DNA from: Diploptera punctata
Lineage: Eukaryota > Arthropoda > Insecta > Blattodea > Blaberidae
NCBI GenBank assembly: GCA_030220185.1
Contig: JASPKZ010010223.1
Location: forward strand, 62,001-126,000
Direction of reading: 5' to 3'
Length of the DNA: 64,000 nucleotides
The notes below the pieces were generated by a model. That model saw nothing but the letters and a program-made list of their open reading frames with translations, had not been told where the DNA came from and did not search any database. Both the position numbers and the translations under genes were made by a program. Below, one piece after another: positions 5,404 through 63,930 of the stretch; the first letter of the stretch is position 1, and each line of letters opens with the position of its first letter.

Positions 5404-5530
5404 GTTATTTTGACTCACCTCATATTTCTTGAATTTTATGCAGACCAGGTTTCGTCGCTTTTGTGCAACATTGTCAATGCATTCCGTTGTCAAGAGGAAT
5501 GCATCTACACTGCCGTATCTGTGTTTTGGA
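5404..5530 (-). mobile_element. PLE fragment with decayed hammerhead
   Basis: The left part carries the family border ACTCACCTCATA. Reverse-strand 5482-5437 shows a hammerhead-like arrangement: stem I AUGCA/UGCAU, core UUGACAA, stem II GUUGC/GCGAC, GAAA, stem III ACCUGGU, then C. The core departs from CUGANGA at two positions, so the ribozyme is probably dead. No inverted partner is present. Confidence 0.6.
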
Positions 5531-5931
5531 AGTAATTAGAAAATTGTTCACCTCCTTGTTATGCCTGATGTAACTTTATTCATTTTTCAGAATTTTTATT
5601 TTTCATTTACAGTTTTTAAAATAATTATGTTTTTATAATTGAATTATTACACTATTTCATATATAATTAAATACTGTTTTTACATTAGGGTAGATAAATA
5701 TGTTAAATGAAGGAAGTAAATATTTTAACTTTTTTTCAGAACCATTTAAATAATAATGTAGTTGTTAGTTTTTTGATCCGTGGATACCTTGACCTGAACA
5801 TAATAAACACTTCCATATCTTTTGGTACCGACATCAAACATGAAATGTGTGGGTAAATAAATGACACAAATGAACAAAGCTATTTTTTTATTGTTTATTA
5901 GCTAATACCCGGTGTGCACTGCTATGCCTAA

Positions 5932-6193
5932 ATAAATGTTAATGTTAATAGTGAGTGGAGAACATATTTTAATTGACTCACCTCATACATTTTCAAACTT
6001 CTTTGATACCGATGGTTTCAGACAAAATCATGTCTTCCACTGAAGAAGGACATGATTTTGTCTGAAACCGTCGGTATCAAAGAAGTTTGAAAATGTATGA
6101 AGTAAGTCGATTAAAATATATTCTCCACTCACTATTAATGATATAACCTCATAATGTTTACTTCCCAATATTAATTTAAATATAAATGTTAAT
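5932..6193. mobile_element. PLE foldback with target-site duplication
   Basis: A foldback of about 100-bp arms (about 5944-6038 and 6047-6146) flanked by a perfect 12-bp ATAAATGTTAAT duplication (5932-5943, 6182-6193). Only the right end carries the extra tail containing the CCTCATAATGTTTACTTCCC motif, giving the one-sided extension seen in the other PLE copies here. No endonuclease coding remains; the centre is mostly hammerhead. Confidence 0.8.
6035..6085 (+). ncRNA. Hammerhead ribozyme motif
   Basis: Core CUGAAGA (6040-6046), one extra A, stem II GGACA/UGUCU (6048-6052 with 6059-6063), GAAA (6064-6067), stem III ACC/GGU, then UA with predicted cleavage after 6076. Stem I is weak next to the core, but CUUC (6033-6036) can pair with GAAG (6081-6084). 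All invariant core bases are present. Activity is an inference. Confidence 0.65.
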
Positions 6194-7291
6194 ATGTTTT
6201 TGCATTTAGTTGAATAAGTAATACGAATAATAATTAAAAATTTGCTGTCTTTATTATTGCAGCTAAAACAACCAATAAACTAATTAATTCTATTTCCAAA
6301 CTACCTTTCAAATTTCATCTTCCAAAATTTAATATTCTAGCAATCACTATAAGTAATTATTTTTAGATACCCCGTGCTGATAATCCATCATTGTCTGGGA
6401 ATCTATGTATCCTGATGTACTTGGCATAAATGAGTTGAAAGACAAAATTCATTATTTTGAGTTATCCATAAAAGAATACCTGCCGTGCGCTACTATGCTT
6501 GCCCAGGAATCTACTTATTCCGATCATCTTGGCATCATTGAAAGACAAAAAAAGGTTATTGTGAGTTATCCATAAAAGATAAACATATGCTGTTGCAGAC
6601 TTTTTTTTGTAGTTTTTTGAGATGTTCAATTCTGTGTAATTAATTTGGTGTATTTGTTATGGTTTAGGCAGCATAAGCCATTTAAGCATACACTTTTTCA
6701 CTACAAAGGGTGATTTTTAAGGGTGAAGGGCTTGAGTATTAATCTTTCTTATAGCCTATAACTTCCCTGGGAAAATCCTGAACATTTTTCAAAAAGCCCC
6801 ATCACAATCGGATTAATGCTATGGCAGTGCACGCTTGCCCGGGAATCTACTTATCCCGATCTTTTTGGCATCAATGAAAGACAAAAATGGCTTTTGTGAG
6901 TTATCTGTAAAAGATGAACATAAGCTGTCACAGGCTTTTTTTTTATAGAGTTTTTTGAGGTATTCAGTTCTGTGTACATTAATTTTGTGTATCCATTATA
7001 GTTTAGGCAGCATAAAAAAAAGGACTTTTTTCATGTTTTTCATTGCAAAGGGTGTTTTTTAAGGGTGTAGGAGTTGAGTATCACAGCTCTCTTGTAGCCT
7101 GGGAATCTCTTGAACATTTTGCCAAAAGCCCCATCACAATCGGATGAACGGTATGGCAGTGCATAAAATATAAACAAACAAACAAACATTCTTTTATATT
7201 AACCTTTTTTTTTTTATAGGAATTATCACTGTGAGGTTCAATTCAATATTAAATTAAAAGATTCTTACCTCTCCTCACATTATTCTGTTAA

Positions 7292-7334
7292 GTAGATCGC
7301 GATTTCAGGCCTATAGCAGGCCCATCTTCAGTAC
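7292..7334 (-). ncRNA. Hammerhead ribozyme motif (left arm)
   Basis: Reverse strand: GUA, core CUGAAGA (7331-7325), extra U, stem II GGGCC/GGCCU, GAAA, self-complementary stem III AUCGCGAU, C, then UAC pairing with the first GUA as stem I. Every conserved hammerhead position is present. It mirrors the copy at 7794-7836. Confidence 0.8.
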
Positions 7335-7468
7335 ACTGTTGTTGACCGGTGTTATGTCGCTCGGAAGAACCACTTCTTCTTCCCTCTGTTGGTGGACCGA
7401 TGAACCTCTTGATAAGGTCAAAATTTGCGGGAACTTCGAAGTTCATAAGTTTTCCTTTGTTTTTCTGA

Positions 7469-7840
7469 ATGTGGATCTTTTCCCAAACTGTAAGTTCCTT
7501 AGGTGTCTCTATTTGTTTAATTAGACTAGCTTTTGATTCAATTCGATGTTTTTCGTATGCTCATGCTTGGTACGAAAAACATCGAATTGAATCAAAAGCT
7601 AGTCTAATTAAACAAATAGAGACACCTAAGGAACTTACAGTTTGGGAAAAGATCCACATTCAGAAAAACAAAGGAAAACTTATGAACTTCGAAGTTCCCG
7701 CAAATTTTGACCTTATCAAGAGGTTCATCGGTCCACCAACAGAGGGAAGAAGAAGTGGTTCTTCCGAGCGACATAACACCGGTCAACAACAGTGTACTGA
7801 AGATGGGCCTGCTATAGGCCTGAAATCGCGATCTACTTAA
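7469..7840 (+). pseudogene. PLE endonuclease C-terminal fragment read through palindrome centre
   Basis: A 123-codon open frame. Its first third is antisense material of the left arm, so the ATG is not meaningful. From residue about 32 it is the tail of a PLE GIY-YIG endonuclease: EKHRIESKASLIKQIETP, TVWEKIHIQKNKGKLMNFEV, then a short linker. It ends in residues encoded by the hammerhead (CTEDGPAIGLKSRST), with the stop just after ribozyme stem I. The upstream GIY and YIG motifs are absent. This is transposon debris, but the coding/ribozyme overlap is informative. Confidence 0.75.
7794..7836 (+). ncRNA. Hammerhead ribozyme motif (right arm)
   Basis: Stem I GUA/UAC (7794-7796 with 7834-7836), core CUGAAGA (7797-7803), extra U, stem II GGGCC/GGCCU (7805-7809 with 7817-7821), GAAA (7822-7825), stem III AUCGCGAU (7825-7832, self-complementary), cleavage predicted after C7833. 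The very short stem III suggests it works best as a dimer, as described for PLE hammerheads. Confidence 0.82.
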
Positions 7841-7892
7841 CAGAATAATGTGAGGAGAGGTAAGAATCTTTTAATTTAATATTCTTTTATAT

Positions 7893-11396: not shown

Positions 11397-11977
11397 ATGA
11401 TGTAGAATTGAACTTTTATAGGTTCAATTTAAGATAAAATCAAATGTTTCACACCTCTCCTCATATTAATCTTCGCGATTTCAAGACCATAGCGGTCCCA
11501 TCTTCAGTACCATCTTGATGACTGATGTAATGTCGATCAGAAGAACCACTTCTTTTTCACTCTTTTGATAAACTGATAAACCTCTGGATCAGGTCAGGAT
11601 GTGCAGGAATTTTGAAGTTCATAAGTTTTTCTTTGTTTTTATGAATGTGGATTTTTTTTCTCATTGTTTGGGAAAAAATCCACATACAGAAAAACAAAGA
11701 AACATTTATGAACTTCGAAATTCCCGCAAATCCTCTCACGGTTTGGGAAAAAATCCACATTCAGAAAAACAAAGAAAAACTTATGAATTTCAAAATTCCC
11801 GCGAATCCTGACCTGATCCAGAGGAAGAGGGAAGAAGAAGTGGTTCTTCTGATCGATATAACATCAGTCGTCAAGATGGTACTGAAGATGGGACCGCTAT
11901 GGTCTTGAAATTGCGATCTACTTAGAAGATTAATATGAGGAGAAGTATGAAACATTTGTTTAGCTATGATGTAGAAT
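11397..11977. mobile_element. PLE foldback with target-site duplication
   Basis: Element 11409-11965 flanked by perfect ATGATGTAGAAT (11397-11408, 11966-11977). The arms carry the endonuclease tail in both directions (VWEKIHIQKNKEKLMNFKIP on both strands) around a rearranged centre near 11665 and 11730, where a second copy of the VWEKIHIQKN segment is inserted in tandem. The right arm holds a complete hammerhead; the left arm has lost its cleavage-site bases. Confidence 0.85.
11879..11921 (+). ncRNA. Hammerhead ribozyme motif
   Basis: Stem I GUA/UAC (11879-11881 with 11919-11921), core CUGAAGA (11882-11888), extra U, stem II starting GGGACC pairing with GGUCUU, GAAA (11907-11910), stem III AUUG/CGAU, cleavage predicted after C11918. 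The left-arm counterpart (near 11471-11510, minus) lacks the final U and C of the cleavage triplet. Confidence 0.78.
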
Positions 11978-13515: not shown

Positions 13516-15066
13516 CACTATTCAAAAAAATTAGAGGAACACATGTTTAAACCAGAACACAAGAATGAATATTGAAACAATTTAATGTTTGATCTCTTGT
13601 AATTATAAATTGAAGATTTATGTAAAATTAGAATAGACATCCAAGCAATATTTTCTTGTACAGTATTAGCAATATGAACAAGTTATCATTTGTAACAGAA
13701 AACAAAGTGGAAATTTGAGATTTACAATTTTTGGAATCAATGTTTCCATGGTTATTTCAACACTCAGTACTTAGTGTGTCCTCCGTGAGCCTGAATGACT
13801 GCATTACACCTATGAGGCATGCTTCGCAGAAGCCTTCTTACAGAAACTTGTGAGATTCTCTCCCATTCCTCGGTGAGTGCATGTGAAAGTTCTTCAAGGT
13901 TCTGAGGTACAGCAGGACGCTTACGAACAAGTTTTTCCAACTTATCCCACATATGCTCGATCGGATTAAGGTCCGGACTGCATGCAGGCCAGTCCATCAC
14001 CCGAATTTGGCATTCTTGCAGGACATCTCTGGTAGCCTGTGCTGTATGACATCTAGCATTATCTTGCATTAGAAGAAAATTAGGGTCCATACCATAAGCA
14101 AAGGGTACAACATATTGGAGGATAATGTCATTAATGTAAATATCAGCATTCATGCGCTGTGGGACAACGACAAGCTCTGTCCGAGACTCAATAGTAATCC
14201 CAGCCCAAACCATAACCGAACCACCTCCAAATCTGTCACGTTCAATAATTGTGGCTGGATCAAAACGTTCACCAGGACGTCTCCATACACGTGTACGACC
14301 ATCAGAACCTGTTAGATGAAATCTTGATTCGTCCGTGAATAAAACACCCTTCCATGGCAGAGCTGCCAGTTGACATGATTCTGAGCAAATTGCAGCCGGG
14401 CTTCTTTGTGCTGACGTGTTAAACGAGGGGCTTTAAAGGGGATTCTAGACCTCAACCTTGCATTTCTCAGTCTATTTCTTACAGTCTGATCAGAAATTAC
14501 CGTCCCAGTTGCTGTGCATAAATGATTTTGTAGATCTCTGGCTGTAGATTTTCTTCTGCGCAAAGCTGATAAGACAAGAAATCTATCCTGTACGTCTGTA
14601 GTCTTCTTATGACCTTGCCCGGGTCTCCTCTTGTATCCATGTGTCTCTCTATATCACCTCCACAGCCTATGGATGACGGAAGGGCTGACATCAAGAATCC
14701 TAGAGACATGGCGAATGGAACGACCATCTTCAATCAATGCAACTGCTCGTGCAACTGATGTTTCATTCAGATGTCTCATTGCTCTGTATTAGCTTCAGAG
14801 AACACAAAATGACAATTCCCTACCACAGATTATTCTTCAAACCTGTTTTTAAAAAAAAGAAATCAATACGAACTCACTTTGGTTTCAGCAACTCTTGGAA
14901 TTTCACTAACATATTCAGGGAAAAATTAATAAAACCCAGAAGATCTTCAATCTGATTTTAAACAATACTTGAACTCAAAACATCTGACTCTCAAAAATTA
15001 AATTGTTACAATATTTATTTTGTGGCTTTGGTTTAAACATGTGTTCCTCTAATTTTTTGAGTAGTG
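13516..15066. mobile_element. Full-length Tc1-like transposon, dead
   Basis: A 1.55-kb element with terminal inverted repeats of about 38 bp (CACTATTCAAAAAAATTAG at 13516; CACTACTCAAAAAATTAG on the reverse strand from 15066), next to TA-rich flanks. One transposase gene lies on the minus strand. Size, ends and DD34E motifs place it in the Tc1 family. Confidence 0.92.
13764..14780 (-). pseudogene. Tc1-family transposase, frameshifted and stopped
   Basis: Starts at the ATG at 14780 (MRHLNETSVARAVALIEDG), with an N-terminal paired-like helix-turn-helix, a second DNA-binding part (STARDLQNHL, RLRNARLRSRIPFKAP), then the catalytic core. Catalytic residues visible: the first Asp in a TDESRF context near 14325, the second in MQDNARCHTA near 14065, and Glu in NPIEHMWDKLE near 13955, with DD34E-like spacing. 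Two lesions: an in-frame TGA at 14656-14654 where an Arg codon (CGA) is expected, and a frameshift near 14335 in a T run, which splits the core so that the C-terminal 149 codons (14213-13764) form a separate open frame. The enzyme would cut and paste its own ends; this copy cannot make it. Confidence 0.9.
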
Positions 15067-18867: not shown

Positions 18868-19310
18868 TAAAGGAAGTGTTACTATGAGGTTTATTTTAAT
18901 TCTAATGAGTTAGACTGTTCATAACTCACCTCATATTTGTAGATTTCTTGCAGACCATGGTTTCGACACTCTACTTGTCATTATCAATTCTTTATAACCG
19001 TTGAATTGGCATTGGCGATCTTGTAGGTTGGTTTCTGTTCCCTCTGTTGGCTGACGAATGAACCTTCAAATCAAAATTTTTTTCTTTTTCCCCACTAATT
19101 TCAAAATTCATTACTTTTCTCTTTATCCTTGTGGATGTAAATTTTCTCCCAAATTATGACTTCCTTAGATTTATCTAACTGTTTCAGTAATTTAGCTTTA
19201 GTTTCAATTCTGTGTTTTTCTGACCATGCATGTGCAGCTATTGCAGATTTTTCTGTTTCCCAGATTTTTAATATTTCTAAGGTAAAATGTCATTTGCCAT
19301 GGCAATGCTG
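18868..19310 (-). mobile_element. Single-orientation PLE copy with decayed hammerhead
   Basis: Left end GGAAGTGTTACTATGAGG. The reverse strand encodes the endonuclease tail (KSAIAAHAWSEKHRIETKAK-like, then IWEKIYIHKDKEK) with stops, followed at 18990-18947 by a hammerhead-like string: core UUGAUAA, stem II GACA/UGUC, GAAA, stem III ACCAUGGU, C. Core substitutions at two invariant places make it probably inactive. Confidence 0.7.
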
Positions 19311-20011: not shown

Positions 20012-20291
20012 AATTTGTGTTAAGATTTAAATTAAAATATTTTATACCTCACCTCATATCCAATATTCTAATTATACCGGTTTCGAAGCCTGGGCAGCTT
20101 CATCTTCAGTAATTTCTTGTCGACTGATGTTATGTTGATCAGGACAATTACTGAAGATGAAGCTGCCCAGGCTTTCAAACTGGTATAATTAGAAGATTGG
20201 ATATGAGGTGATGTATAAAATATTTAATTTAAATCTTAAATTAAACATCATAGTGATTTTTTCCTATAAAAGTTGAAATAAATTTGTGTTA
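20012..20291. mobile_element. PLE foldback with target-site duplication
   Basis: Element 20023-20280 between AATTTGTGTTA copies (20012-20022, 20281-20291). Arms of about 95 bp hold one intact and one decayed hammerhead, with no endonuclease coding. The one-sided tail with CATCATAGTGATTTTTTCC is on the right. Confidence 0.85.
20082..20112 (-). ncRNA. Hammerhead ribozyme motif
   Basis: Reverse strand: stem I UUA/UAA, core CUGAAGA (20109-20103), extra U, stem II GAAGC/GCUUC, GAAA, self-complementary stem III ACCGGU, then A with cleavage next to UAA. The + arm (core 20151-20157) has CAAA in place of GAAA and is broken. Confidence 0.78.
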
Positions 20292-21385: not shown

Positions 21386-21944
21386 GGATGAGAATCAGAA
21401 TATACAGGGAATTTAAGTATAACAACACAGTATGTGATGTTGGATAACAATTATCATATTGGGAGAATATCTATATCCTAAAGTGGATGGTTTCGCTACT
21501 GTGGAATGTCAAAATATTACATTTCAGACATGGGACGTTCAGTTAATTACTGATTTTACCTTTAATGTACTGGATTTTTTAAATGTCCATCACTACCCTG
21601 TTGTCGGAATTTAAATTCCTATAATATCCTTATTTTGCAGGGGTTGTGAATAAAAATTTACTATTATTGTTCTATATGTGGTAGAAATTTGAATAAAAAA
21701 CCATGTTGTAGCTAAGTTATCACTCTTTCTTCTTTCTTTTGCTCTAATAAGAGTAGTTTTTGTTTTGTACTGGTGCTTCTTGCACCTATAATTGTTGTTC
21801 ATTTTGCAGCAAAATATCAAAATCTGCTCCCAGGGGACACCGCGTGGAGGCAAACAACCTTGTCCCCCAGTTATCACTCTTTACTCTGAAAAAAAAATCA
21901 TAGTAATACTGCTATAAGGTTAAGATATATGAATAAATTAATTT
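21386..21944. other. No gene or repeat recognised
   Basis: AT-rich; a short GC-richer patch at 21825-21870 has no recognised content. Confidence 0.5.
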
Positions 21945-22060
21945 TAATATTCTTCTTCTTCTTTAGACTAGTTTCAAAACTTTAATCAATTTCATCATCA
22001 GTATTTTGACGACCATTGTTCTGTCTTCTAATTTTAATTTGCATGCTTTTAAAGTGGGTA
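21945..22060 (-). mobile_element. Solo PLE 3' fragment with hammerhead
   Basis: A short one-orientation remnant centred on an intact hammerhead (21962-22004). No inverted partner and no clear duplication. Confidence 0.65.
21962..22004 (-). ncRNA. Hammerhead ribozyme motif
   Basis: Reverse strand: core CUGAUGA (22001-21995), the canonical form, extra U, stem II GAAAUU with AGUUUU (G-U and A-U pairs), GAAA, self-complementary stem III ACUAGU, C, then UAAAG. Stem I next to the core is short (UA/UA). Stem II is weak, so activity is uncertain. Confidence 0.7.
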
Positions 22061-25935: not shown

Positions 25936-26116
25936 TAACCTATTTATTAATTAAATTATTTTCAATCTGATCATCTTACCTCAATATTAATGTTGATTTG
26001 TTCTTGGACATGTTTCAAAACAACATTAATATTGAGGTAAGATGATCAGACTGAAAATAATTTAATTAAAATAACCTCAAAATATCACTTCCTAAAATTA
26101 AATATTAACCTATTTA
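25936..26116. mobile_element. Short PLE foldback with target-site duplication
   Basis: Element 25947-26105 between TAACCTATTTA copies (25936-25946, 26106-26116). Arms of about 60 bp keep the border GATCATCTTACCTCAATATT and the last part of a hammerhead (TTTC, ACATGT, C on the minus strand), but the core is deleted. Same subfamily as 30420-30640 and 42112-42508. Tail on the right. Confidence 0.8.
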
Positions 26117-26325: not shown

Positions 26326-26501
26326 AAAGAGAAAACAGAAATTAAAACAGGACATGGAGACACCTGTGGATAATCGTGGAGCCAGTTTAACAGTTGGCCC
26401 CAGAGGGCCTATGCTTCTGCAAGATATTACATTCCTGGATGAATTAGCCCATTTTGACAGAGAACGAATTCCAGAAAGAGTAGTTCATGCCAAGGGTGCT
26501 G
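26326..26501 (+). CDS. Cat: Catalase exon a (active-site His)
   Basis: Acceptor TTTGTTACAG before 26326, donor GTACGT at 26502. The frame enters with one base and leaves with one base (Gly split G/GT). Encodes the N-terminal arm ([19 protein letters not shown]), then RGPMLLQD and [14 protein letters not shown], which holds the distal His that drives peroxide cleavage. The Met at 26356 is inside the exon and is not the likely start, because the reading frame is open to the acceptor and animal catalases have more residues upstream. Confidence 0.93.
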
Positions 26502-26764
26502 GTACGTATTAAATTACTAAAAAAAACAAAATATATGTGTATTTCAATTTGCTTTTCTCTTCAAGTTCTGCGCATGGGGGATAGAACATGTTGATGTGAT
26601 CTATTTTCAATTTGTACACCATTTTACCAAACTGCATTACATAGATATTTACTTATATGGTGGTATACAGAATGTAGGGTGAGTGTTCATATAGTGCAAG
26701 TAGCCTACATTGTTTAAAGGATGATAATGATGATGGAAAACAAAATGTTTAGGACATTGGCCTA

Positions 26765-42372: not shown

Positions 42373-42418
42373 AAAAGCTGACGATAAAACAGAATTGTTT
42401 TGAAACATGTTCAAGAAC
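42373..42418 (+). ncRNA. Hammerhead ribozyme motif (right arm)
   Basis: Core CUGACGA (42378-42384), extra U, stem II AAAACA/UGUUUU (42386-42391 with 42396-42401), GAAA (42402-42405), stem III ACAUGU, predicted cleavage after U42411. On the catalase sense strand, in intron 35577-48863. Confidence 0.7.
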
Positions 42419-42639
42419 AAATCAACATTAATATTGAGGTAAGATGTTCAGACTAAAAATAATATAATTAAAATAACCTCAAAATATAACTTCCTAAAAT
42501 TAAATATTAACTTAAGTAATTTTTTTTTTGTCTCACTGACATATGCTTATAATCAAATTTCTGTCAGCTTATAATCATTAAAATTTCCTTATTTGTAATT
42601 TAAAGTGCTATGAAACAGAATTAAGCTCTTTTCATTTAA

Positions 42640-43990
42640 TACTGAAAATATCACCTCACCTCATATTTTGCCTTCTTTTAGACCGGTTTTGGAATAATTA
42701 TTCCATCATCATTATCTTTATAATCATTATTCTGTTGTGGTGATGCATTGCTTCTTCCTCAATCTATTGATAGACTGATGAACCTCCAAATCAAATCACA
42801 TTCCCTGGGATTTTAAAAATTTGTTTTCTCCATTTTTTTTAATGTAGATTTTTTCCAAATTGTGTGCTCATTAGGATTTCATTAATTTAGCCTTTCTTTC
42901 AATTTTATGTTTTTCTGACCAAGTGTTAGTGGCTACTGCAGATTTTTCTACTTCCCCATTTTTAACATTCCTAAAATGTCCTTCAATCTGATTTTCAAAT
43001 TTATTTTTGTTTTCCATATGTATATTTTATTACAATCCTTGCATTTTATCTGATAAATCCCTGATTAATTTTTTTCTTCCATTTTCTAATTTTTTGTTTG
43101 ATTTGATTATTCTATTGAGGCTATAGTCATTTTTCGATGACAATCTTATGCTGAACTTTTTAAAACATATTTGAAACTTGCAATGCTTCAATGGATGATT
43201 TTTTTTTTTTTTTTGCAAATGCCCCAGGTTGCCTTTTTGACATTCCTTGTGTTCTCTCCTGGCATGGCATACTTGTAACCCACTTCTGAGGTTGGGGCGC
43301 CTGGAAGGTGGGGTTATGTTGCCCCGATGATATGATGGGTGATGATGATGATTGATAGTGGTGCGGGTGCGCCAGGAGAGACCCTAATTCTAAGCGTAAT
43401 CTAAGATGAATATGAATGATGATTGCGATGGCCATATGATTTTGGGGAACGTTTGGGCCTTAAAGTTTTCCTGACATTTGTCTTACAGGTGAGGAAAAAT
43501 CCCGATAAAAATCTCACCCAGAAAAACTGCCACGACCGGGAATCGAACCCGGACCTGCTGCGTGACAAGGCAGCATGCTACCTCGAGACCACAGCGGTGG
43601 ACATGGATGATATGTAAACTTCTTGATTTTTATATTTTCTTATTTTTCATTTTAAGTGTACTTTTATTGATTGATTTTTGTCTTTTGAACTTATCTACTT
43701 TTCTGTGCATCATGATTTCTTCAAACCTATTCTCTACTGCTACATTTATTATTTATTCTTTTTCTTTATCGTAATTCTCTCTGTTCATGGGTATGTATAT
43801 TAATCTGTGTGTTAGACTATTGAAACCTTGCTCTTTGTGAGCAATATGATTAAATCCTGAAGCTGTAATTTAATTATCCATATGTATTTTCTTTCTATGT
43901 ATTTATTCCGGATTCTCTTCAGTTCTTATTAAATTTAGATCTGAAAGTGGCATTTGTCTGTTATCTTCATTCTTTATTGTGATCTTTGTA
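42640..43990 (-). mobile_element. Decayed PLE fragment split by a SINE-A
   Basis: Minus strand: part of the RT-to-endonuclease region (43990-43615) with HKEQGFNSLTHRLIYIP and NRENYDKEKE, a typical PLE pattern, then the SINE-A insertion (43199-43602), then the endonuclease tail (LGQKNIKLKERLN, TIWKKSTLKKMEKTNF) to about 42780. At 42720-42670 a hammerhead-like string survives with GGAAU/AUUCC as stem II and ACCGGUC, but core C3 and G12 are lost. Confidence 0.75.
43191..43610 (-). repeat. SINE-A subfamily 2 with 8-bp target-site duplication
   Basis: Element 43199-43602 between ATGGATGA copies (43191-43198, 43603-43610). Same tRNA-like head as SINE-A (B box GGTTCGATTCCCGGTCG on the minus strand), but a different tail with CCACTTCTGAGGTTGGGGCG and CAGGTTGCCTTTTTGACATT. 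A second copy is at 52640-52995. Confidence 0.88.
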
Positions 43991-49509: not shown

Positions 49510-49645
49510 AATTGCTATGATGTTTAATTTAAGATTAAATTAAAATGCTTCATATCTCATCTCATATCCAGTCTTCTAAGTAGACCGTGGTTTCAAAGCC
49601 TTGCCGGCCTTCAGTACTTTCTCGTTGTAAGATATCTTCTTTTTC
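49510..49645 (-). mobile_element. Solo PLE fragment with decayed hammerhead
   Basis: Left end GCTATGATGTTTAATTTAAG, border ATCTCATCTCATATCC. Reverse strand near 49617-49575: GUA, CUGAAG, shortened stem II GGCC/GGCU, GAAA, ACCACGGU, C, UAC. The core has lost its last A and part of stem II. Confidence 0.65.
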
Positions 49646-51068: not shown

Positions 51069-51116
51069 CCATGATATCGCGATTTCAAACATAATCATGT
51101 TCATCGTCAGCCATAA
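51069..51116 (-). ncRNA. Hammerhead ribozyme motif, best stem I
   Basis: Reverse strand: stem I UUAUGG (51116-51111) with UCAUGG (51074-51069), six pairs including G-U; core CUGACGA (51110-51104); extra U; stem II GAACAU/AUGUUU; GAAA; self-complementary stem III AUCGCGAU; cleavage predicted after A17 (51075). The most complete example in the window. Antisense to catalase. Confidence 0.85.
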
Positions 51117-52227: not shown

Positions 52228-52389
52228 GTAAGATGTGAACAGAGTTACAATTTCTATCTATATAATTCTTTTACTTAATTAAAATTATGGGATCTTGATG
52301 CCAAATATTTCATGCAGTTCATATTTGTTAATAGAATGCTAGGAAATACTAAAAATTTTAATTTTTTAATTCAATAAAATTACTATGGA

Positions 52390-52625
52390 GAGTTATACTG
52401 TGAGATAAACTATCAATTTATATAAATGAATTGGATATTTTTATGTCTCACCTCATAAAAATTTGATTTTCACAGGACCGTTTCAGAAGGTATCCCCTCT
52501 ATTGTCAGCTAAATATCAAAGTTTATGTGACAATAAAGAGGATGCCTTCTGAAACCAGTCTGGTGAAAATCAGATTTTTATGAGATGAGATGTTAAAATA
52601 ACAAATTAATTCACATTAATAAAAT
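52390..52625. mobile_element. PLE foldback with decayed hammerheads
   Basis: Arms about 52440-52510 and 52535-52600 with border TGTCTCACCTCATAAAAATT. Minus arm: core CUGACAA (G8 changed), stem II AGAGGG/CCUUCU, GAAA, ACGGUC. Plus arm has lost the core start. No endonuclease coding. Confidence 0.7.
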
Positions 52626-54224: not shown

Positions 54225-54760
54225 AATTTAGTTAAATTTATGGTAAAATCAAATATTCCTTACCTTTCCTCATACAAATTTTCTAAGAAGATCGCGATTT
54301 CGAGACCATAACGGTCTCATCTTCAGTACTATTTTGGCGACTGATGTTATGTCGATCGGAAGAAACTCTTCTTCTTCCTCTGTTGGTGGACCGATGAACC
54401 TCTGGATTAGGTCAGAATTTGCGGGAATTTCGAAGTTCATAAGTTTTCCTTTGTTTTTCTGAAAAACATTGTATGGTGCAGAGACTGAAAAACAAAGGAA
54501 AACTTATGATTTGAAATTCCTAAAAATCCTGACCTGATCCAGAGGTTCATCGGTCACCAACAGAGGGAAGAAGAAGAGTTTCTTCTGATCGACATAACAT
54601 CAGTTGCCAAAATAGTGCTGAAGATGAGACCGTTATGGTCTCAAAATCGTGATCTACTTACAAGATTTGTATGAGGAGAGGTAAGAAACATTTGATTTTA
54701 CCATAAATTAAACCTCATAATGATTAATTCCTGTAAAAGTTAAATAAAAAATTAGTTAAA
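54225..54760. mobile_element. PLE foldback with target-site duplication
   Basis: Element 54237-54748 between AATTTAGTTAAA and AAATTAGTTAAA (54225-54236, 54749-54760; one mismatch). Arms about 54243-54470 and 54480-54712 carry endonuclease-tail debris and a hammerhead each. The right end has the extra tail with CCTCATAATGATTAATTCC. Because it sits in a known SINE, both borders are firm. Confidence 0.9.
54285..54330 (-). ncRNA. Hammerhead ribozyme motif (left arm)
   Basis: Reverse strand: GUA, core CUGAAGA (54326-54320), extra U, stem II GAGACC/GGUCUC (six Watson-Crick pairs), GAAA, self-complementary AUCGCGAU, C, UUCUUAG. Stem I is reduced to one or two pairs. The + arm (core 54618-54624) reads AAAA for GAAA and is broken. 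Confidence 0.72.
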
Positions 54761-55954: not shown

Positions 55955-56070
55955 ATCATTTATGTTGAGTTGTTTTTGACTCACCTCATACTTCTTTAAG
56001 AAGTATTAGGTGAGTAAAAAACAACTCAAACATAAATAAAAAAAAACCTCAGTGTTATTTCCTACCTACA
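55955..56070. mobile_element. Very short PLE-type foldback
   Basis: Arms ATGTTGAGTTGTTTTTGACT and its near inverse meet at CTTCTTTAAGAAG; right end AACCTCAGTGTTATTTCC. No hammerhead remains. Confidence 0.65.
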
Positions 56071-56473: not shown

Positions 56474-56493
56474 TTTGAATTATGATTAATAAC

Positions 56494-57209
56494 TAATAAA
56501 TAGTGATAATATTATTTGTTTTTAGACATCTTAATGATGGACAAATTATATTTGAAAAGAAAAATATATGCCTGGACTGGGGTTTGAACCCAGGACCTTT
56601 GACTCTCTTTGTCAATGCTCTTCCAAGTGAGCTTCCTAGACCTCCAGTCTAAACGTGTATTTTTCTCTTATACATAGTTAATTCCCTAACCCCAAATGCT
56701 ACGAGCCGTTGCTACGATTTTTGCAAATGATGGCTTCTTTATTAAGAAGACTTTTTATTAGGAATTTAAACATTACTTATAAAGCCAGTAGTGCTTCTTT
56801 CAATGTTAATATTATTCGTTTTTAAACATCTTAATGATGGACAAATTATATTTGAAAAGAAAAATATACGCCTAGACTGGGGTTTGAACCCAGGACCTTT
56901 GACTCTCTATGTCAATGCTCTTCCAAGTGAGCTTCCTAGGCCTCCAATCTAAACGCGTATTTTTCTCTTACACATAGTTAATTCCCTAACCCCAAATGCT
57001 ACGAGCTGTTGCTACGATTTTTGCAAATGGCAGCTTCTTTATTAAGAAGACTTTTTATTGGGAATTTAAACATTACTTATAAAGCCAGTAGTGCTTCTTT
57101 CAATGTTAATATTATTCGTTTTTAGAGCATTGACATAGAGAGTCAAAGGTCCTGGGTTCAAACTGCAGTCTAGGCGTATATTTTTCTTTTCAAATATAAT
57201 AAATAGTGA
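56494..57209. repeat. SINE-E tandem and inverted cluster, 13-bp target-site duplication
   Basis: Insert 56507-57196 between TAATAAATAGTGA copies (56494-56506, 57197-57209). Two tandem units of about 283 bp, nearly identical, each with a minus head (about 56573-56645 and 56873-56945), then a half plus head (57126-57175) closing the pair. The near identity shows a recent tandem duplication within the inserted element. Confidence 0.85.
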
Positions 57210-57282
57210 GTCGTGAAATCTCACCTCATAAACTCCATGATCTTCGAGCACGGGACTGCAGTTTCAAGACACAGTCATAAAG

Positions 57283-57326
57283 ATGGCTGAAGATGAGAGG
57301 GATTCCTCTTGAAACTGCAGTCCTGT
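57283..57326 (+). ncRNA. Hammerhead ribozyme motif, catalase sense strand
   Basis: Stem I AUGG/CUGU (57283-57286 with 57323-57326), core CUGAAGA (57287-57293), extra U, stem II GAGAGG/CCUCUU (57295-57300 with 57305-57310), GAAA (57311-57314), self-complementary stem III ACUGCAGU, predicted cleavage after C57322. Complete core and good stems. It lies in intron 52228-58431, so the pre-mRNA would contain it. Confidence 0.8.
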
Positions 57327-57442
57327 GCTTGAAGATCACGGAGTGTATGAGGTGAGATATCACAACTCACTATTTGTTAGTTATTAACTTGAAAGCATCA
57401 TATGTTATTTCCCATAATTAATTTATGAAATTTGAATTATGA

Positions 57443-57999
57443 CTAATGATCTCAAATGTTGAGAGTATCATTAAGTAAAATACTACCAGTAATCATAAAT
57501 GAGATATGTTAGTAAATGTTTGAAAATATTTTTCTGTGTTTTAAAAATTACATAAGAAGGTTGAAAAGGTTAAACAAATTTAAAAAAAAATATATATATT
57601 AGACTTACTATGTTATTTATACTTTTGTTTAGTTTATTGAAATTTTTTTCTTTTAATCTATCCCAATAAAAATTACCTACATTTTTAGAGATTTTTTATT
57701 GTATCACTTGATATGTTTAAAAAAACCCTTGTTTTCATCAACTAAATTCTTATGATGATTATGAAAGCATATTTGTTTTTGAAACATCTCAAGTGAGATG
57801 AGGATGTTTTATGGGATGAAGTTTGAAGATTTTGATTCATATTTATATGCTATTGGTAATTTACCTCATAGTTTCATTTCTCATTAATTTTATTAAAATT
57901 GACCCCATGTAGGCCTATTCATATTTTCATCAGAGAATAAACTTTTTGTATATTCAATATTTAATGTTAGATTTATATTTGAAGAGAAAAAATATTAGC
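57443..57999. other. Catalase intron, PLE-type borders only
   Basis: Mostly unrecognised; 57790-57895 has TCAAGTGAGATGAGGATG and ACCTCATAGTTTCATTTC, likely a worn PLE end pair. Confidence 0.4.
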
Positions 58000-58180: not shown

Positions 58181-58431
58181 TCTCTCTTAAGATTTTTATT
58201 ATTTAATATTATTTTTATTAACATTTTTAATATTAGATTTATATATTACTTTTTTTTTTGTTAATTCTTAATGAACCTGAAAAATGAACAAATTGAAGTG
58301 TTTGTTAATCAGTGTTCAATTGTTATATACTGCCTTGTTTCTTTCCTTACTTTTGACAAGTAGACTTAATAAATATTCAGAGAGAATTGCTTAAATATTA
58401 TGTAATTATGAAAAATTTGTGTTTTTTGCAG

Positions 58432-58623
58432 ACTAATCAAGGAATCAAGAATCTGCTGGCAGATAAAGCACATCAGGTAGCTGCCAATGATCCTGACTAT
58501 TCTATTCGTGATTTGTATAATTCAATTGCAAAGGGAGATTACCCTACATGGACTATGTATATTCAGGTTATGACCTTCAAACAGGCTGAAACATACAAGT
58601 GGAATCCTTTTGATCTTACAAAG
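58432..58623 (+). CDS. Cat: Catalase exon e
   Basis: Exactly 64 codons, in phase (acceptor GTTTTTTGCAG, donor GTATTA). Encodes [40 protein letters not shown], then [20 protein letters not shown] and DLTK. The family motifs DQGIKNL-like, YPTW, IQVM and NPFDLTK are intact. No lesions. Confidence 0.96.
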
Positions 58624-59343
58624 GTATTATACATTTTTTTTTTTCAACTTCAAATTTTATTTGCTAGATTGTCATAAATACAATATTAGAAAGAAAAAAT
58701 AATTATAATAACTAATAATAAATTAATATTCTAGTGCACACTTAGGAACTATTGCTTGTGCTAGGAATTAATTCAGTGAAACTTCATAGTAAAATAAAAT
58801 CTATGTGTATTAGAAGAGGATGGATAAAATTAATTATACTAGTTAGAAATTTATATTAATTCATTTTATATTCAAATATATTATGAAAAAATGTTAAATC
58901 ATATCTATTTTTAATAGAGAAAGTGTGCTTTATTAGTGTTTATAGAACATTTAGGCCCATGTAATGAGGTTTCTTTTTTATTATAGGTGAAGTTTTTAAA
59001 GTTTTCTTAATTTTGAGAGATAATATATATATAGGCATAATTAATTTATAAATGTGCTTGACAATAGTATCTAGACTTCAGAAAATATTTAGTTAGATAG
59101 ACATTTGATTCCAGTAAATAAATAAGACAATTAATATATTATCTTTAATTTATTTGTTATTTACAGAACACTTGAAATACAATTCATTCATCCATATGAC
59201 ACCAACTGACAAATACATTGACAAAATATATAACAATTAAATATTTCATAAATGATTAAAGAAATACTAAAAGTAAATTAGGGCAGTTACACAACTGTAT
59301 ATAGTTTGTAATCATTTTAATTATTTGTTTAAAATTATTGCAG
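58624..59343. other. Shortest catalase intron seen, repeat-free
   Basis: 720 bp of AT-rich intron without recognised transposons, ending in the acceptor AATTATTGCAG. Confidence 0.6.
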
Positions 59344-59496
59344 GTTTGGTCTCATTCTGATTTCCCTTTGATTCCTGTTGGAAAATTGGTGTTGGACCGC
59401 AATCCGTCCAACTATTTTGCAGAAGTGGAACAGATTGCATTCAGTCCTTCTCACATGGTGCCTGGCATCGAGCCCAGTCCTGACAAGATGTTGCAG
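59344..59496 (+). CDS. Cat: Catalase exon f
   Basis: Exactly 51 codons, in phase (acceptor TTGCAG, donor GTAATT). Encodes [40 protein letters not shown] and [11 protein letters not shown]. The [15 protein letters not shown] and [11 protein letters not shown] motifs are intact. No lesions. Confidence 0.96.
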
Positions 59497-59789
59497 GTAA
59501 TTGAGAAGAAATGTTTAGTTAAAATGAGCTTGGAAAAAGTAGCATTTAATTTATTACTAAATATAAATAAAAATTCTATCAGAAATCTAATCTACTACAT
59601 TCACAAAAAAAATGTATTATATGATGTGATTGGTTCCATAAGATCATATATAACAAAGGCTTAAACTCTTAGGACAATTAACTATTATAAAAATCAACTG
59701 TTACACAATTTGTGATGCAACTTTTGTTTTAAATTAGCGAGTAAGATATCAAGTTGTTACAGGAGAAAAATGTATTGTGGTTCATCTAT

Positions 59790-60895
59790 GTTTCAATATT
59801 ATATTGTAATGATAACTAACAGTCCTCCCAATAAATTTAGGAATAAGACAGGGCTGTCCTCTCTCGCTGACTTTAATATATATTTAGACGCAGCTGTCAC
59901 AGAATGGCAAACACAGTTAAGTAAACATTTTAAACTAGGAATTACCATTGTAGACACAATTATGTTTGCAGACGATCAGGTCATATGTGCAGAATCAGAA
60001 AATCAATTACAGAAAGCCACACTACTACTCAAAAAAACCATGGAGAAATATAATCTCGAGATTTCAACGAAGAAAACAAAAAACAATGGCCTTTTGGGAA
60101 AAATATGCAGTTCGATCGAAAATGGTTTTGAATGATGAAATTATTGAACAAGTACAGAGTTTTAAATATTTAGGATGTCACATATCTTACAATTGGGAAA
60201 ATGATATACATGAAAAAAAAAAGATAAATTTCAAAGTATGTGTGGGACTATAAAAGAATACTACACACGAAAACAACAAAAGAAACAAAGCTAAAGTTTT
60301 ATAAGGTAATGGCAGTTCCCATTGTGACATGTGGATCAGAGAATTGGGCCATGAATAGATCAGACAGAAGATTACTAGAAACATCAGAGGTGAAGTTCCT
60401 CAGATACGTTGCAGGATATACTCTTAAGAGACCACATTCCTAGTGAAACAATTAGGCAAGAACTCGAAATTTTTAATCTAAATGAAAGAGTACAAAACTA
60501 TAAACAAAAATGGCATGATTATATTTGAAAAGAAAAATATACGCCTAGACTGGGGTTTGAACTCAGGACCTTTGATTCTCTATGTCAATGCTCTACCAAG
60601 TGAGCTACCTAGGCCTCCAATCTAAACGCATATTTTTCTCTTATACATGGTTAATTCCCTAACCCCACATGCTATGAGCCGTTGCTGTTTTTCTTTTCAA
60701 ATGTAATTTGTCATCATTAAGATGTTTAAAAATGAATAATATTAACATTAAAAATGCATGAACATATTTTAAGAATGGACTCATCTAGGCTAACAAAACA
60801 AGCACTGTTGTACTAACCTCAAGGCTATAGAGATGTGGGACGTCCTAGAAGACGATGGGAAGATGAATTCTGAGAGCTGAACAGGCCGACAGCCT
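59790..60895 (+). mobile_element. LINE RT fragment, fifth family, split by SINE-E
   Basis: Encodes GIRQGCPLSL-like residues (59838-59865), FNIYLDAAVTEWQTQL, catalytic FADD in IMFADDQVICAESENQLQKA (59962-60010), FKYLGCHISYNWENDI, AVPIVTCGSENWAMNRSDRR and KFLRYVAGY, then across the SINE-E (60519-60749) the C terminus RMDSSRLTKQ and GRPRRRWEDEF (60775-60870). Frameshifts near 60080 and 60225 and a stop near 60440. A long truncated copy in the intron before exon g. Confidence 0.85.
60506..60761 (-). repeat. SINE-E with target-site duplication
   Basis: Insert 60519-60749 between AAAAATGGCATGA and AAAAATGCATGA (60506-60518, 60750-60761). One minus head (about 60548-60620) and the body with CCCTAACCCCACATGCTATG. 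Confidence 0.82.
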
Positions 60896-61665: not shown

Positions 61666-61986
61666 ATAATAATAATTTTAACGACATTGATGTAAGTCAG
61701 ATGACTAGAGTAAAAACTGACACTTCATAACATTTCTCTCATTACTTTCTCCATCGGACAGTGTATCAGATATACAATCAAGTCTATTGAAAGAAGTTGC
61801 ATCACCATTTCTACAGCTATGTTGGTAGCAGGTAGGTTCAAATTCTTATTGCTTGACCCATGCAGATAATGGATGGAAGGAAGTTAAAAAAAAATGGGTA
61901 TTATGGAAATGTCTGACCTTTCATTACACATGGAGTGTAATTTTATCATCATAAAAATAGTTTTAAGAAATTATGCTTGTTTTTAG

Positions 61987-62222
61987 GGACGTCTTTTCAG
62001 CTATTCAGACACACATCGTCACCGACTGGGAGCCAACTACCTGCAGATTCCTGTAAACTGCCCTTACAGAACTCGTTTAACCAACTATCAGAGAGATGGT
62101 CCTCAGTGCTTCAATAATAACCAGGAAGGTGCTCCAAATTATTATCCCAACAGTTTTGGTGGTCCAGAGGATGTGCCACATTGTGCTCAGTCAAAATTTG
62201 TTCCAACAGGAGATGTGGCTAG
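61987..62222 (+). CDS. Cat: Catalase exon g (heme-ligand Tyr)
   Basis: Acceptor GCTTGTTTTTAG, donor GTAAAT at 62223; 78 codons plus two bases of a split Arg. Encodes [60 protein letters not shown] and a tail to [19 protein letters not shown] carries the proximal Tyr that binds heme iron and the Arg beside it. No lesions. The donor is only five bases from a Helitron. The next exon is outside the window. Confidence 0.96.
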
Positions 62223-62227
62223 GTAAA

Positions 62228-62727
62228 TCTTAATATATAAAAATTTTGTGTCACATTGTTTGTCCGCGATGGAATCCTAAACTACTGTACCGATTTTAAT
62301 AAAATTTTGCACACTGTGTGCAGTTTGATCCAACTTGAGACTTAGGGTAGTTTATAACTAAATTTATAGTCACATTATTTTTTATTGCAAATTATTTGTT
62401 TATTATTTAACAAAGAATTATAATTATCTGTGAGTTCCATACAGTTCTAACAGATGGCAGTGTAAGGTAATTTGGTAAGGTAATTTGTTTATTATTTAAC
62501 AAAGAGAGATCCAGATGGCTGTGCTTTTTGTTGCAACCGCGAATTTCAATTGAATTGCAAATATTGATTATTTCATAATTTAAGTGTGTTCAGTGTTTAT
62601 TTTATTTTCAATATTATTAATTTTGTGTGTAAATATTAGTTTTAAGTAATCTGGCTGAAAGACAGCAACTTAATTTAAATTTTTAACGTATACCTTAGCC
62701 ACAGCAACGTGTGGCCGGGACTTCTAG
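62228..62727 (+). mobile_element. Non-autonomous Helitron, 500 bp
   Basis: Starts TCTTAATATATAAAAATTTT, the usual 5' end of insect Helitrons, followed by GTGTCACATTGTTTGTCCGC and an ACCGATTTTAATAAAATTTT segment. Ends CTAG (62724-62727) with the 3' hairpin CCACA/TGTGG (62699-62703, 62710-62714) ten bases upstream. Inserted between A (62227) and T (62728), the Helitron target, with no duplication. An internal short direct repeat GTTTATTATTTAACAAAGA occurs twice. No coding. Confidence 0.88.
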
Positions 62728-62823
62728 TGTAGTATAAAAAATCTTGTGCATGTACACAAATTAATATTACGACTTATTTCATGAGAAGATGTTTGCAACA
62801 TTGTGTTTATGAATTTGACAATT

Positions 62824-63930
62824 ATTTAATACATAATGGTTTCTTTTAGGAAGTAATATTTGAGGTTTTTTTAATTAAGTTTTTTGAGACTGGGAAACAT
62901 CTACCTCAAATTAATGTTGAGTTATTCTTGAACATGTTTTGGTATAATCTTTTATATCATCATCAGCTTGCCCAGACTGTTGCGTTTTATGTTGTGAACC
63001 CTGGATGCCAATATCAGCTCCCTCCTCCAGCTGGCTGAAGAACCTCCAAATTAGGTCACGTCAGCAGGAATTTTGAAATTCATGATTCTTATTTTGTTCT
63101 TCTGAATGTAGATTTTCTTCCAAAATAGTGAGTTCTTTTGTATTTTCTTGAAGGAACACACAAGAAATATTAAAAGTGGGGAAATAGAAAATCTGCAGTT
63201 GCTGCTCATGTTTGTTCCAAAATACATAATATAAATCCGAACACTAAATTATTAAAACAAGTAGAAAATACTAAAGATCTCATTATGGGAAAAAATCTAC
63301 ATTCAGAAGAACAAAATAGTCATAAATTTCAAAATTCCTGCTGAACGTGACCTAGTTTAGACTGTGCATTTTATGTTGTGAACCCTGGATGCCAATATCA
63401 GCTCCCTCCTCCAGCTGGCTGAAGAACCTCCAAATTAGGTCTCGTTCAGTAGGAATTTTGAAATTCATGACTCTATTTTTGTTCTTCTGAATTTAGATTT
63501 TTTCCCAAATAGTGAGTTCTTTTGTGTTTTCTTGAAGGAACTACAAGAAATATTAAAGGTGGGGAAATAGAAAAATGTGCAGTTGTTGCTCATGTTTGTT
63601 CCGAAATACATAATATAAATCCGAACACTAAATTATTAAAACAAGTAGAAAATACAAAAGAACTCCCTATTTGGGAAAAAATCTACATTCAGAAGAACAA
63701 AAATAGTCATGAATTTTGAAATTCCTGCTGAACGTGACCTAGTTTGGAGGTTCTTCAGCCAGTCGGAGGAGGGAGCTGATATCAGCATCCAGGGTTCACA
63801 ACATAAATCACAACAGTCTGGGCAAGTTGATGATGATATAGAAGATTATATCGAAACATGTTCAAGAATAAGTCAACATTAATTTGAGGTAAGATGTTTC
63901 CTAGTTTCAAAAAACTTGATTTAATACATA
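62824..63930. mobile_element. PLE foldback with internal tandem duplication
   Basis: Element 62836-63918 between ATTTAATACATA copies (62824-62835, 63919-63930). The left end has the extra tail with AGGAAGTAATATTTGAGG. A segment of about 380 bp (62981-63358) is repeated in tandem (63360-63738); each copy has one minus and one plus piece of endonuclease tail (WEKIYIQKNK, NFKIPAERDLV). The plus-arm hammerhead is nearly complete; the minus arm (core 62966-62960) has CUGAUGA but AAAA for GAAA. Confidence 0.85.
63822..63868 (+). ncRNA. Hammerhead-like motif, one core change
   Basis: Core UUGAUGA (63827-63833; C3 changed to U), extra U, stem II GAUAUA/UAUAUC (63835-63840 with 63847-63852), GAAA (63853-63856), ACAUGU, U, then CAAG. 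The C3 change is expected to abolish cleavage. Confidence 0.55.

Follow-up and report, generated by a model that had tools for sequence, protein, structure and literature searches.

Mirror-image Penelope-like elements around a catalase gene of Diploptera punctata suggest that copying starts at both ends of a DNA break

How mirror-image copies of Penelope-like elements (PLEs) arise has so far been unsettled between a self-priming proposal of 2013 and the two-strand extension observed in vitro in 2024. The former, an analysis of Adineta, attributes the inversion to antisense RNA that primes its own copying (PMC3846280), and the latter reports that both strands are extended and leaves the later steps for validation (PMC11167929). 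This question is raised by 64 kb of Diploptera punctata DNA (GCA_030220185.1, contig JASPKZ010010223.1, 62,001-126,000; hereafter the window, whose own positions are used below), in which we count 20 scored foldbacks and five solo hammerhead copies. Five catalase exons, each scoring over the Pfam cut-off, follow one another collinearly on the + strand (26378-26509, 35453-35572, 58357-58674, 59305-59661 and 61987-62091). An earlier note on this DNA had placed a cluster of hammerhead ribozymes inside one gene; six of the twelve sites that it listed do lie in catalase introns, and the other six are upstream of the first exon found. Since hammerheads in PLEs are already known, the ribozymes add families of a known type. 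The foldbacks are more informative than the ribozymes and more important than the earlier note suggested, and their mirror layout suggests that copying of the elements into the genome starts on both flanks of a DNA break.

The anatomy of an arm can be read from the centre outward. It comprises (optionally) the endonuclease C-terminus, an initiator-like CAGTY, about 15 nt, and a minimal type I hammerhead, its A9 coinciding with the first base of an AUG, followed after about 30 nt by a hairpin TATGAGGT...ACCTCATA whose loop holds start 1 of reverse transcription; start 2 lies about 40 nt further out. In this hairpin, 86.5% of the cells are paired against 79.5+-2.1 in shuffles and double-change cells number 7 against 2.4, two of the five covariation measures being without clear gain over the shuffles, of which 35 and 47 in 500 attain the observed value. 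Scored by eye, the start sites are outermost and a tail is found on exactly one arm in 20 of 20 foldbacks. PLEs are described as having pLTRs, direct or inverted, with an optional tail of 30-40 nt, and the same is found here with tails of 19-51 nt (14 measured, 11 of them 29-41 nt). For specificity, the count over four other repeat families was 0 of 24 copies. Among the abutting inverted pairs of the window, 20 of 21 were assigned to the hammerhead (HHR) or tRNA classes, the remaining one being an AT simple repeat; the inverted pairs 33596-34116 and 34399-34815 were left out of the scoring.

The tail is on the right in the foldbacks of the + strand. HHR-class copies of this orientation are 5951-6176, with the target-site duplication (TSD) TAAATGTTAATG(TTAATA) at 5933-5950 and 6177-6194; 20023-20280, with TSD AATTTGTG(TTA) and hammerheads at 20072-20112(-) and 20148-20188(+); 25951-26105, a short copy of the downstream part only, with TSD TAACCTATTTA(TTAA) containing one mismatch; 30425-30646, with TSD ACTATGRTGTTTA and a hammerhead at 30475-30512(-); 41423-41764, with a weak TSD (score 9) and 7 extra nt on the left; 42112-42508, with TSD AACTTAAG(TAATT) and hammerheads at 42163-42202(-) and 42375-42414(+); and 54237-54747, with a TSD of about AAWTTAGTTAAA and hammerheads at 54287-54329(-) and 54615-54657(+). 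The PLE endonuclease foldback (37206-38650; TSD TGTCTTTATA(AA)) has arms that are 99.3% identical and U4C hammerheads at 37271-37307(-) and 38508-38543(+). The HHR-class copy at 56491-57430 consists of 57197-57430 plus 56491-56506, its left arm being split by a tRNA-class element, with a hammerhead at 57284-57325(+) and TSD TTTGAATTATGAYTAAT at 56474-56490 and 57431-57447. A short foldback with no hammerhead left (55960-56066; attributed by eye from hairpin and tail) has a 20-nt TSD with mismatches. On the - strand, where the tail is on the left, we find HHR-class copies at 7200-7880, with arms 98.4% identical, hammerheads at 7292-7334(-) and 7794-7836(+) and TSD ATTCTTTTATAT (7188-7199 and 7881-7892); at 11409-11965, with a decayed tail, a 4-nt filler on the right, TSD ATGATGTAGAAT, a hammerhead at 11879-11921(+) and its decayed mirror at 11465-11510(-); and at 62836-63918, an element with inverted repeats, TSD ATTTAATACATA and hammerhead remnants at 62928-62969(-) and 63824-63865(+). 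The foldback at 52383-52617, also attributed by eye from its hairpin and tail, has a weak TSD (score 10).

Of the 20 scored insertions, 17 have a TSD score of at least 10 (13 from a first set of 18 intervals plus four from a second set of seven, in hand-chosen windows), a score reached by 3.2% of 1500 random intervals. The tail-less end often has 2-6 nt in common with the target. Across 17 insertions, including three with zero overlap, it overlaps the duplication by 2.8 nt on average and by at least 2 nt in 14, against a null of 0.97 (two-sided, AT-rich; P=0.00005); this test was first run on 13 rows, then on the 17 insertions. Microhomology is absent at 11438 (4-nt filler), 41423 (7-nt filler) and 60518, and at 30419 it amounts to 3 nt against the family sequence and none against the element's own decayed arm.

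Because of the one-tail asymmetry, the outermost starts, the TSDs and the target homology at the tail-less end, we favour two-ended priming from the 3' ends of a staggered cut. The endonuclease would make a break whose 3' overhangs match the duplicated target in length (about 11-20 nt), and both 3' ends would prime reverse transcription of the element RNA, one starting at site 2 with the tail kept and the other near site 1, often aided by pairing between target and RNA over 2-6 nt. The two antisense cDNAs would then converge in a tail-outward arrangement, anneal through a few bases and be filled in to leave a single foldback between TSDs. The anatomy, covariation, tail asymmetry, TSDs and microhomology are read directly from the sequence; we infer the order of nicks, the two primers and the joining of the cDNAs. 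The hammerhead, whose RNA fold persisted from family to family, would lie near the RNA 5' end and probably cleaves the element RNA, with protein help or as a dimer. We give a probability of about 0.6 to the joint reading that the elements descend from several canonical, GIY-YIG-bearing PLE families, of which mostly 5'-truncated remains are left, and that they inserted by this two-ended route. The Poseidon/PAc element of Anolis is alike in its hammerhead over the start codon, and its purified protein cuts and extends both strands, with two adjacent internal starts that bound the tail (PMC11167929). Unlike in that system, initiation is here read from genomic foldbacks, and the tail-less start often has target homology whereas the Anolis starts are not homologous to the cut DNA (PMC11167929).

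The best-surviving alternative, which we nevertheless consider unlikely, is self-priming, in which a cDNA (or antisense RNA) uses its own folded-back 3' end as the primer for its copying, after which the hairpin is linked to the opposite side of the break. This explanation is in print, in the Adineta analysis, for head-to-head inverted pLTRs with palindromic junctions, and the Adineta vaga Penelope described there resembles the present elements in these two features, in the tail on one copy and in the TSD, although its TSD is given as 8-10 nt (PMC3846280). Junctions such as 30513, with few complementary bases and a short loop by eye, would also suit it. Yet self-priming alone predicts neither one tailed arm with the other stopping near start 1, as in 20 of 20 foldbacks, nor microhomology between the tail-less end and the target, and it needs no second-strand priming on RNA, which has been observed in vitro. 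The 20 insertions, 17 with a scoring TSD and each with one tail, turn two-ended priming into a concrete and testable geometry of two primers and two starts, one of them target-aided. Short-loop central junctions, for their part, are equally compatible with snap-back priming.

Hammerhead motifs are much more frequent than expected by chance. A strict descriptor (CUGANGA, 0-2 nt, stem II of at least 4 bp, GAAA, stem III of at least 2 bp, UH, stem I of at least 3 bp) found 7 sites against a mean of 0.025 per shuffle (40 dinucleotide shuffles), one of the seven, 54326-, scoring solely via an aberrant long fold, and a relaxed scan found 11 sites at a score of at least 20 against 0.07 per shuffle (30 shuffles). 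The "eleven full layouts" of the earlier note were overstated, because six of its twelve listed sites are intact: 7292-, 7794+, 11879+, 20082-, 51069- and 57283+ have the exact core, at least 3 bp of stem I, stem II and stem III. The rest are without most of stem I, which is 2 bp at 21962- and about 1 bp at 54285-, 30472-, 42162- and 42373+, where the core is retained, and 6035+ is at chance level in our covariance model (E=2.4). The exact conserved core CUGANGA / GAAA / UH occurs together with three helices at six of the twelve, and the copies at 38511 and 37304 have one core change. In the covariance model, 11 of the 12 sites are clear relatives (E<=1.3e-5), several of them being training rows or copies thereof. 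Further copies were detected at 20148+, 54615+, 37271-, 38508+, 11465-, 42678-, 49580- and 18950-; about ten decayed copies had been mentioned previously with no coordinates given. The solo copies are 18950-18990(-), decayed and with a distinct stem II; 21963-22004(-), the one with 2 bp of stem I; 42678-42715(-) and 49580-49617(-), both decayed; and 51072-51113(-), intact, with a stem I of 6 bp. A model trained minus three families recovered all three, with E-values that are rough by the tool's own statement: 3.1e-6 for 51072-51113(-), whose own family was left out, 6e-6 for 57284-57325(+) and about 0.01 for 37271(-)/38508(+). Rfam, which the earlier note had put forward as a check, returned no hammerhead among 14 gathering-score matches in the window or among 86 matches at E<=10; we read this miss as a limit of the test and not as a refutation.

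The covariation itself holds. In a hand-laid alignment of 11 rows, with loops masked and identical and decayed copies dropped, 97.1% of the cells are paired against 73.4+-2.4 in shuffles, 37 cells show double changes against 11.3, and both-sided changes occur in all three helices across families. Stem III is short, and self-complementary in 11 of 11 aligned rows, as had been claimed for its self-complementarity. The extra base after A9 is likewise seen in all 11 rows, always a U, but it is no separate peculiarity, because it is the U of an AUG (in 10 of 11 rows) that overlaps A9 and stem II, a layout already published for the Penelope element of Anolis. Cervera and De la Pena reportedly described minimal PLE hammerheads in 2014; the present ones, type I and minimal too, are new families with nothing categorically different. 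PLE hammerheads are characterised as type I and minimal with helix III tiny or absent (PMC6155905).

The predicted monomer minimum-energy structure is the hammerhead in 0 of 7 copies. A hammerhead formed by the dimer is predicted to be more stable than two monomers in 4 of 7, and in no copy is it the dimer minimum. When one foldback transcript was folded, a long hairpin enclosed its ribozyme, and hammerheads within foldbacks are expected to be locked in this way in any host transcript. Slightly less likely than self-priming, in our judgement, is that selection has ceased to maintain the hammerhead as a ribozyme, leaving a relic kept only by its overlap with promoter, AUG and start region. The unstable predicted monomer and the loss of most of stem I in half of the listed sites point that way, as do the Anolis hammerhead mutants, which insert normally in vitro, and the finding of no RNA ends at the cleavage site (PMC11167929), whereas the both-sided changes in three helices and the exact core in distinct families argue for a maintained fold.

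Covariation, the leave-family-out model, a GIY-YIG-type endonuclease and the inverted pLTR layout with tail and TSDs together support the hammerhead fold and the Penelope-like origin. The layout agrees with features described for PLEs in PMC11167929 and PMC3846280, in line with the origin proposed by the earlier note. That one foldback encodes a GIY-YIG-type endonuclease fragment is indicated indirectly: its open reading frame P0001 has one protein match, P0002 (E=8.7e-15, 46% over 40%), which passes Pfam GIY-YIG (24.9 vs a cut-off of 22.6), the P0001 piece itself being below that cut-off (14.7 vs 22.6). Element copies are mostly 5'-truncated, and we identified no PLE reverse transcriptase in the window, where one RVT_1 match (59716-60132) is placed in no family. 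It is very improbable that the elements are retrozymes, non-autonomous tandem hammerhead repeats: animal retrozymes do have type I hammerheads, measure about 150-450 bp and are found in genomes that also contain PLEs (PMC7229834), but here an endonuclease fragment is encoded in one foldback, the minimal hammerhead overlaps an AUG, and the layout is inverted with a tail, not one of non-coding tandem monomers with a canonical hammerhead. Assembly or amplification artefacts are hardly credible: two foldbacks have arms more than 98% identical, yet the arms differ by 8-25% in 15 of 20 pairs, TSDs frame most foldbacks, and a nested insertion has its own duplication.

Six of the 20 scored insertions are SINE-like, with tRNA sequence where the ribozyme would sit. 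They are 29900-30406(-), with tRNA terminal repeats in both inverted and direct orientation, its tail on the left and TSD TAAACACTATGGTGTTT; the foldback 31789-32101(+), with a 19-nt tail on the right and TSD AATAAAMACCTACA; 35725-36264(-), with tail left, the tail-less end CTTCAAATAT on the right and an imperfect TSD; 36806-38930(+), interrupted by the nested endonuclease foldback and with no TSD found (score 6.5); 56507-57196(-), with tandem 300-bp units, tail left and TSD TAATAAATAGTGA; and the foldback 60518-60749(-), with a strongly truncated arm on the right and TSD AAAAATGGCATG / AAAAATGCATG (score 8.5, below 10). All six have one tail, and four have a TSD score of at least 10. Rfam gives 14 tRNA matches in the window, not all of them of this class, and ARAGORN 9; internal promoter boxes were read by eye. 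Like tRNA-derived SINEs, the elements have a tRNA-related region, called here by both programs. Unlike in those SINEs, it sits in direct and inverted terminal repeats beside two start sites, in a Penelope layout, often with an upstream TATA motif and an adjoining start-site pair similar to that of the PLEs. No match between the tRNA and hammerhead classes was found in the window self-comparison at E<=1e-8, and our literature searches found no PLE-style mobilisation of a tRNA SINE. We tentatively propose, with the odds slightly against it, that these are SINE-like elements moving via the Penelope pathway, the tRNA-like module replacing the hammerhead, and inserted by two-ended PLE priming; tRNA processing would perhaps replace self-cleavage. 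If true, PLEs would join LINEs as carriers of tRNA SINEs, PLE-carried parasites would extend beyond hammerhead retrozymes, and both classes of foldback together would show PLE insertion primed from both break ends. The two classes also meet in the window: one tRNA-class element has inserted into a hammerhead foldback, at the end of its start-1 arm; a second lies directly next to a different hammerhead foldback, and a third received the endonuclease foldback.

Comparison of the window with itself by BLAST revealed 21 abutting inverted pairs (foldbacks), one of which is an AT simple repeat. The other 20 were assigned to a hammerhead class, an endonuclease class or a SINE-like class carrying tRNA sequence, the assignment being by eye from a hairpin and tail motif for 52416 (about 52383-52617) and 55958 (about 55960-56066), and from weak model matches for 33596. 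Four other dispersed families of repeats, chosen by hand, contributed 24 copies as a control, and no abutting inverted pair was found among them. Twenty insertions were then scored by eye, 14 hammerhead/endonuclease and 6 tRNA-class, a set that takes in the composites 56507-57196 and 60518-60749 and leaves out two older pairs, 33596-34116 and 34399-34815, which seem to belong to the hammerhead and tRNA classes. With tails and junctions placed by eye and unblinded, all 20 showed the ends bearing the proposed reverse-transcription start sites outermost and, on exactly one arm, a tail, that is, the stretch between the inner start (site 1) and the outer one (site 2).

Arms that lack the tail have their outer end inside a TATGAGGT...ACCTCATA hairpin downstream of the hammerhead, and the tail-bearing arms extend 19-51 nt further out, mostly 29-41. 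This start-site hairpin was 86.5% paired versus 79.5±2.1 in shuffles (12 rows, without 25947, whose row is identical to 42107, and 11438, whose tail is decayed) and held 7 double-change cells versus 2.4 in shuffles; two further covariation measures were matched in 35 and 47 of 500 shuffles. The Penelope-like element (PLE) of Anolis likewise has two start sites around a tail, in a stem loop (PMC11167929). A reading of GAGGTRAG as a 5' splice site was dropped because its bases build the 5' strand of the hairpin, although splicing may still occur.

Target-site duplications (TSDs) scoring at least 10 flank 17 of the 20 insertions. Thirteen of them come from 18 intervals with fixed windows, and a score of 10 was reached in 3.2% of 1500 random intervals; this control compared 15 of the 18 intervals (13 at 10 or more), omitting 35725-35999 (7.5), 34399 (6.5) and 36806 (6.5). 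The remaining four come from seven intervals retested with hand-chosen windows, for which the random control is not strictly valid, and 36806, 34399 and 60518 remained below 10 in this retest. The scored insertions below 10 are 41423 (9), 60518 (8.5) and 36806 (6.5). Foldback 57197, whose left arm is interrupted by a tRNA element, failed with fixed windows for that reason; the TSD of the foldback itself is located outside that element. The tail-less end and the TSD share a mean of 2.8 nt, with at least 2 in 14 of 17 insertions, against 0.97 for a two-sided AT-rich null (P=0.00005). Not in this set are 52416, whose duplication is weak, 35725, where it is imperfect, and 36806, which has none. 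The overlap of 30419 (about 30425-30646) is taken from the family sequence, the arm of 30419 itself being decayed; measured on that arm it would be 0, and the mean about 2.6. Zero overlap was observed at 11438 (about 11409-11965; 4-nt filler), 41423 (7-nt filler) and 60518. An earlier comparison of 13 rows gave 3.2 versus 1.05 (P=0.00025).

Inverted terminal repeats (pLTRs) with one tail and duplications are already described in PMC3846280, which proposes self-priming on an antisense template. Such self-priming accounts for the palindromic junctions, and the short loops and few-base complementarity are compatible with it, but it leaves the tail asymmetry unexplained unless further assumptions are added. 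We infer instead that both ends of the target prime. A staggered break with 3' overhangs would leave a free 3' end on each flank, carrying the future duplication, and both 3' ends would prime on element RNA, so that the top strand would read antisense arm, junction, sense arm. Priming from both ends would thus place the start sites outermost, matching the observed layout, and a single tail would result because one arm would start at site 1, aided by pairing with the target, and its partner at site 2. In vitro, the purified Anolis protein cuts and extends both strands (PMC11167929).

The six scored tRNA-class elements (29900-30406, 31789-32101, 35725-36264, 36806-38930, 56507-57196 and 60518-60749) are SINE-like and have the Penelope-type foldback layout with a tail. 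They carry inverted and direct tRNA-bearing repeats; a tRNA-like region is present in eleven copies, preceded in 7/11 by a TATA motif at a distance of 31-36 nt. Five of the six elements have their tail-less end no more than a few nt from YTTCAAATAT, the one at 31789-32101 ending further out; the tail-bearing ends are AT-rich, and about four of the six include a sequence resembling AATAATAAAA. Exact TSDs flank 29900-30406 (17 nt) and 56507-57196 (13 nt). The latter is inserted in the start-1 arm end of hammerhead foldback 57197, an endonuclease foldback is inserted into element 36806, and 29900-30406 adjoins hammerhead foldback 30425, either insertion order being possible. This foldback layout, the ends, the duplications and the nesting with PLE foldbacks are taken as evidence that tRNA-class elements may use the PLE route. 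The self-comparison of the window gave no match between tRNA-class and hammerhead elements at E<=1e-8, so their link is architectural. By eye, the GTCTTCTTAA..AGAAGC-like body motif of the tRNA class also occurs upstream of diverged copies 44452, 46650 and 61575. Earlier publications already report PLE hammerheads, inverted pLTRs and tails; neither a tRNA SINE moved by PLEs nor an explicit two-ended priming of PLE foldbacks was found in the open-access literature searched, most subscription papers lying outside its reach.

A strict hammerhead descriptor retrieved 7 sites in the window versus 0.025 per dinucleotide shuffle (40 shuffles), one of the seven, at 54326, scoring solely via an odd long fold. 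Twelve sites had been listed in the earlier note from the sequence alone; six proved to hold an exact core with three helices, and the remainder were without the full set. Rfam, suggested there as the check, matched no hammerhead in the window, neither at the gathering cut-off nor at E<=10, and was set aside as arbiter; its miRNA-family matches on palindromes were below cut-off and were read as long hairpins. We therefore trained a covariance model on eight rows, keeping out families 51110, 57287 and 38511/37304, and searched with filters off. The kept-out hammerheads 51072-51113 (minus strand) and 57284-57325 (plus) were recovered at E=3.1e-6 and E=6e-6, and 37271-37307 (minus) and 38508-38543 (plus) at E about 0.01, values that are rough by the tool's own account. 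In total, 22 matches had E<0.1 in the window, including the training rows, which match by construction. An HDV-ribozyme match at 21794-21870 (minus) reached 30.6 bits, under the cut-off of 50.

In a manual alignment of 11 hammerhead rows, 97.1% of cells were paired versus 73.4±2.4 in shuffles, a figure that holds for the better copies, and 37 cells changed on both sides versus 11.3. Sliding the partner by 1-3 columns brought pairing down to 20-50%. The alignment omits identical rows 7331 and 37304, same-family rows 42199 and 30509, and decayed or partial copies 6041, 41643, 62966, 49614, 42712, 18987, 11510 and 63824. Because it was fitted to the fold and the decayed copies were omitted, we regard the covariation as support for the fold, not as an unbiased estimate. 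Nearest-neighbour models, which work without tertiary contacts and protein, gave the hammerhead as monomer minimum in 0/7 copies; as a dimer it lay below two monomer minima in 4/7 and was the minimum in none. Six copies folded separately all formed stem II and never the three-way junction. The Anolis ribozyme is protein-dependent and dispensable for insertion in vitro (PMC11167929). The one foldback transcript folded, 54231-54713, is predicted to form a single hairpin (-344 kcal/mol) that encloses the ribozyme.

The extra base after A9 that the earlier note reported in all copies is indeed a U in every row (11/11); it is not a separate peculiarity, being the middle of an AUG in 10/11, and the same overlap of hammerhead and AUG exists in the Anolis element PAc (PMC11167929). 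A CAGTY initiator-like motif starts 13-17 nt before the core in 11/17 copies, which are non-independent, versus 1.8% of random windows. Among the junctions inspected by eye, no arm was seen to end at the ribozyme cleavage site, and a few arms ended at the initiator (30513, 57288), too few for a claim.

The largest foldback, 37206-38650, encodes a 214-aa fragment in both arms. Its only protein-database match, P0002, clears the Pfam threshold for GIY-YIG, which the fragment misses. Nothing in the window was recognised as a PLE reverse transcriptase, and viral contigs, searched by protein and with two tRNA-class patterns, contained no relatives. The DNA of the window is AT-rich and of animal type, with five collinear catalase exons on the plus strand, all above the Pfam cut-off (26378-26509, 35453-35572, 58357-58674, 59305-59661 and 61987-62091), three of which were first located by motif; the catalase introns make up much of it (span 26378-62091). 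A reverse transcriptase fragment (RVT_1) lies between two of these exons at 59716-60132 (plus). Five solo, non-foldback hammerheads (51110, 22001, 49614, 42712 and 18987) run antisense to the catalase gene without exception, although so few copies permit no conclusion. Finally, broken ORFs at 13764-14653 (minus) are putatively of a Tc1/mariner-like transposase, named by eye only.
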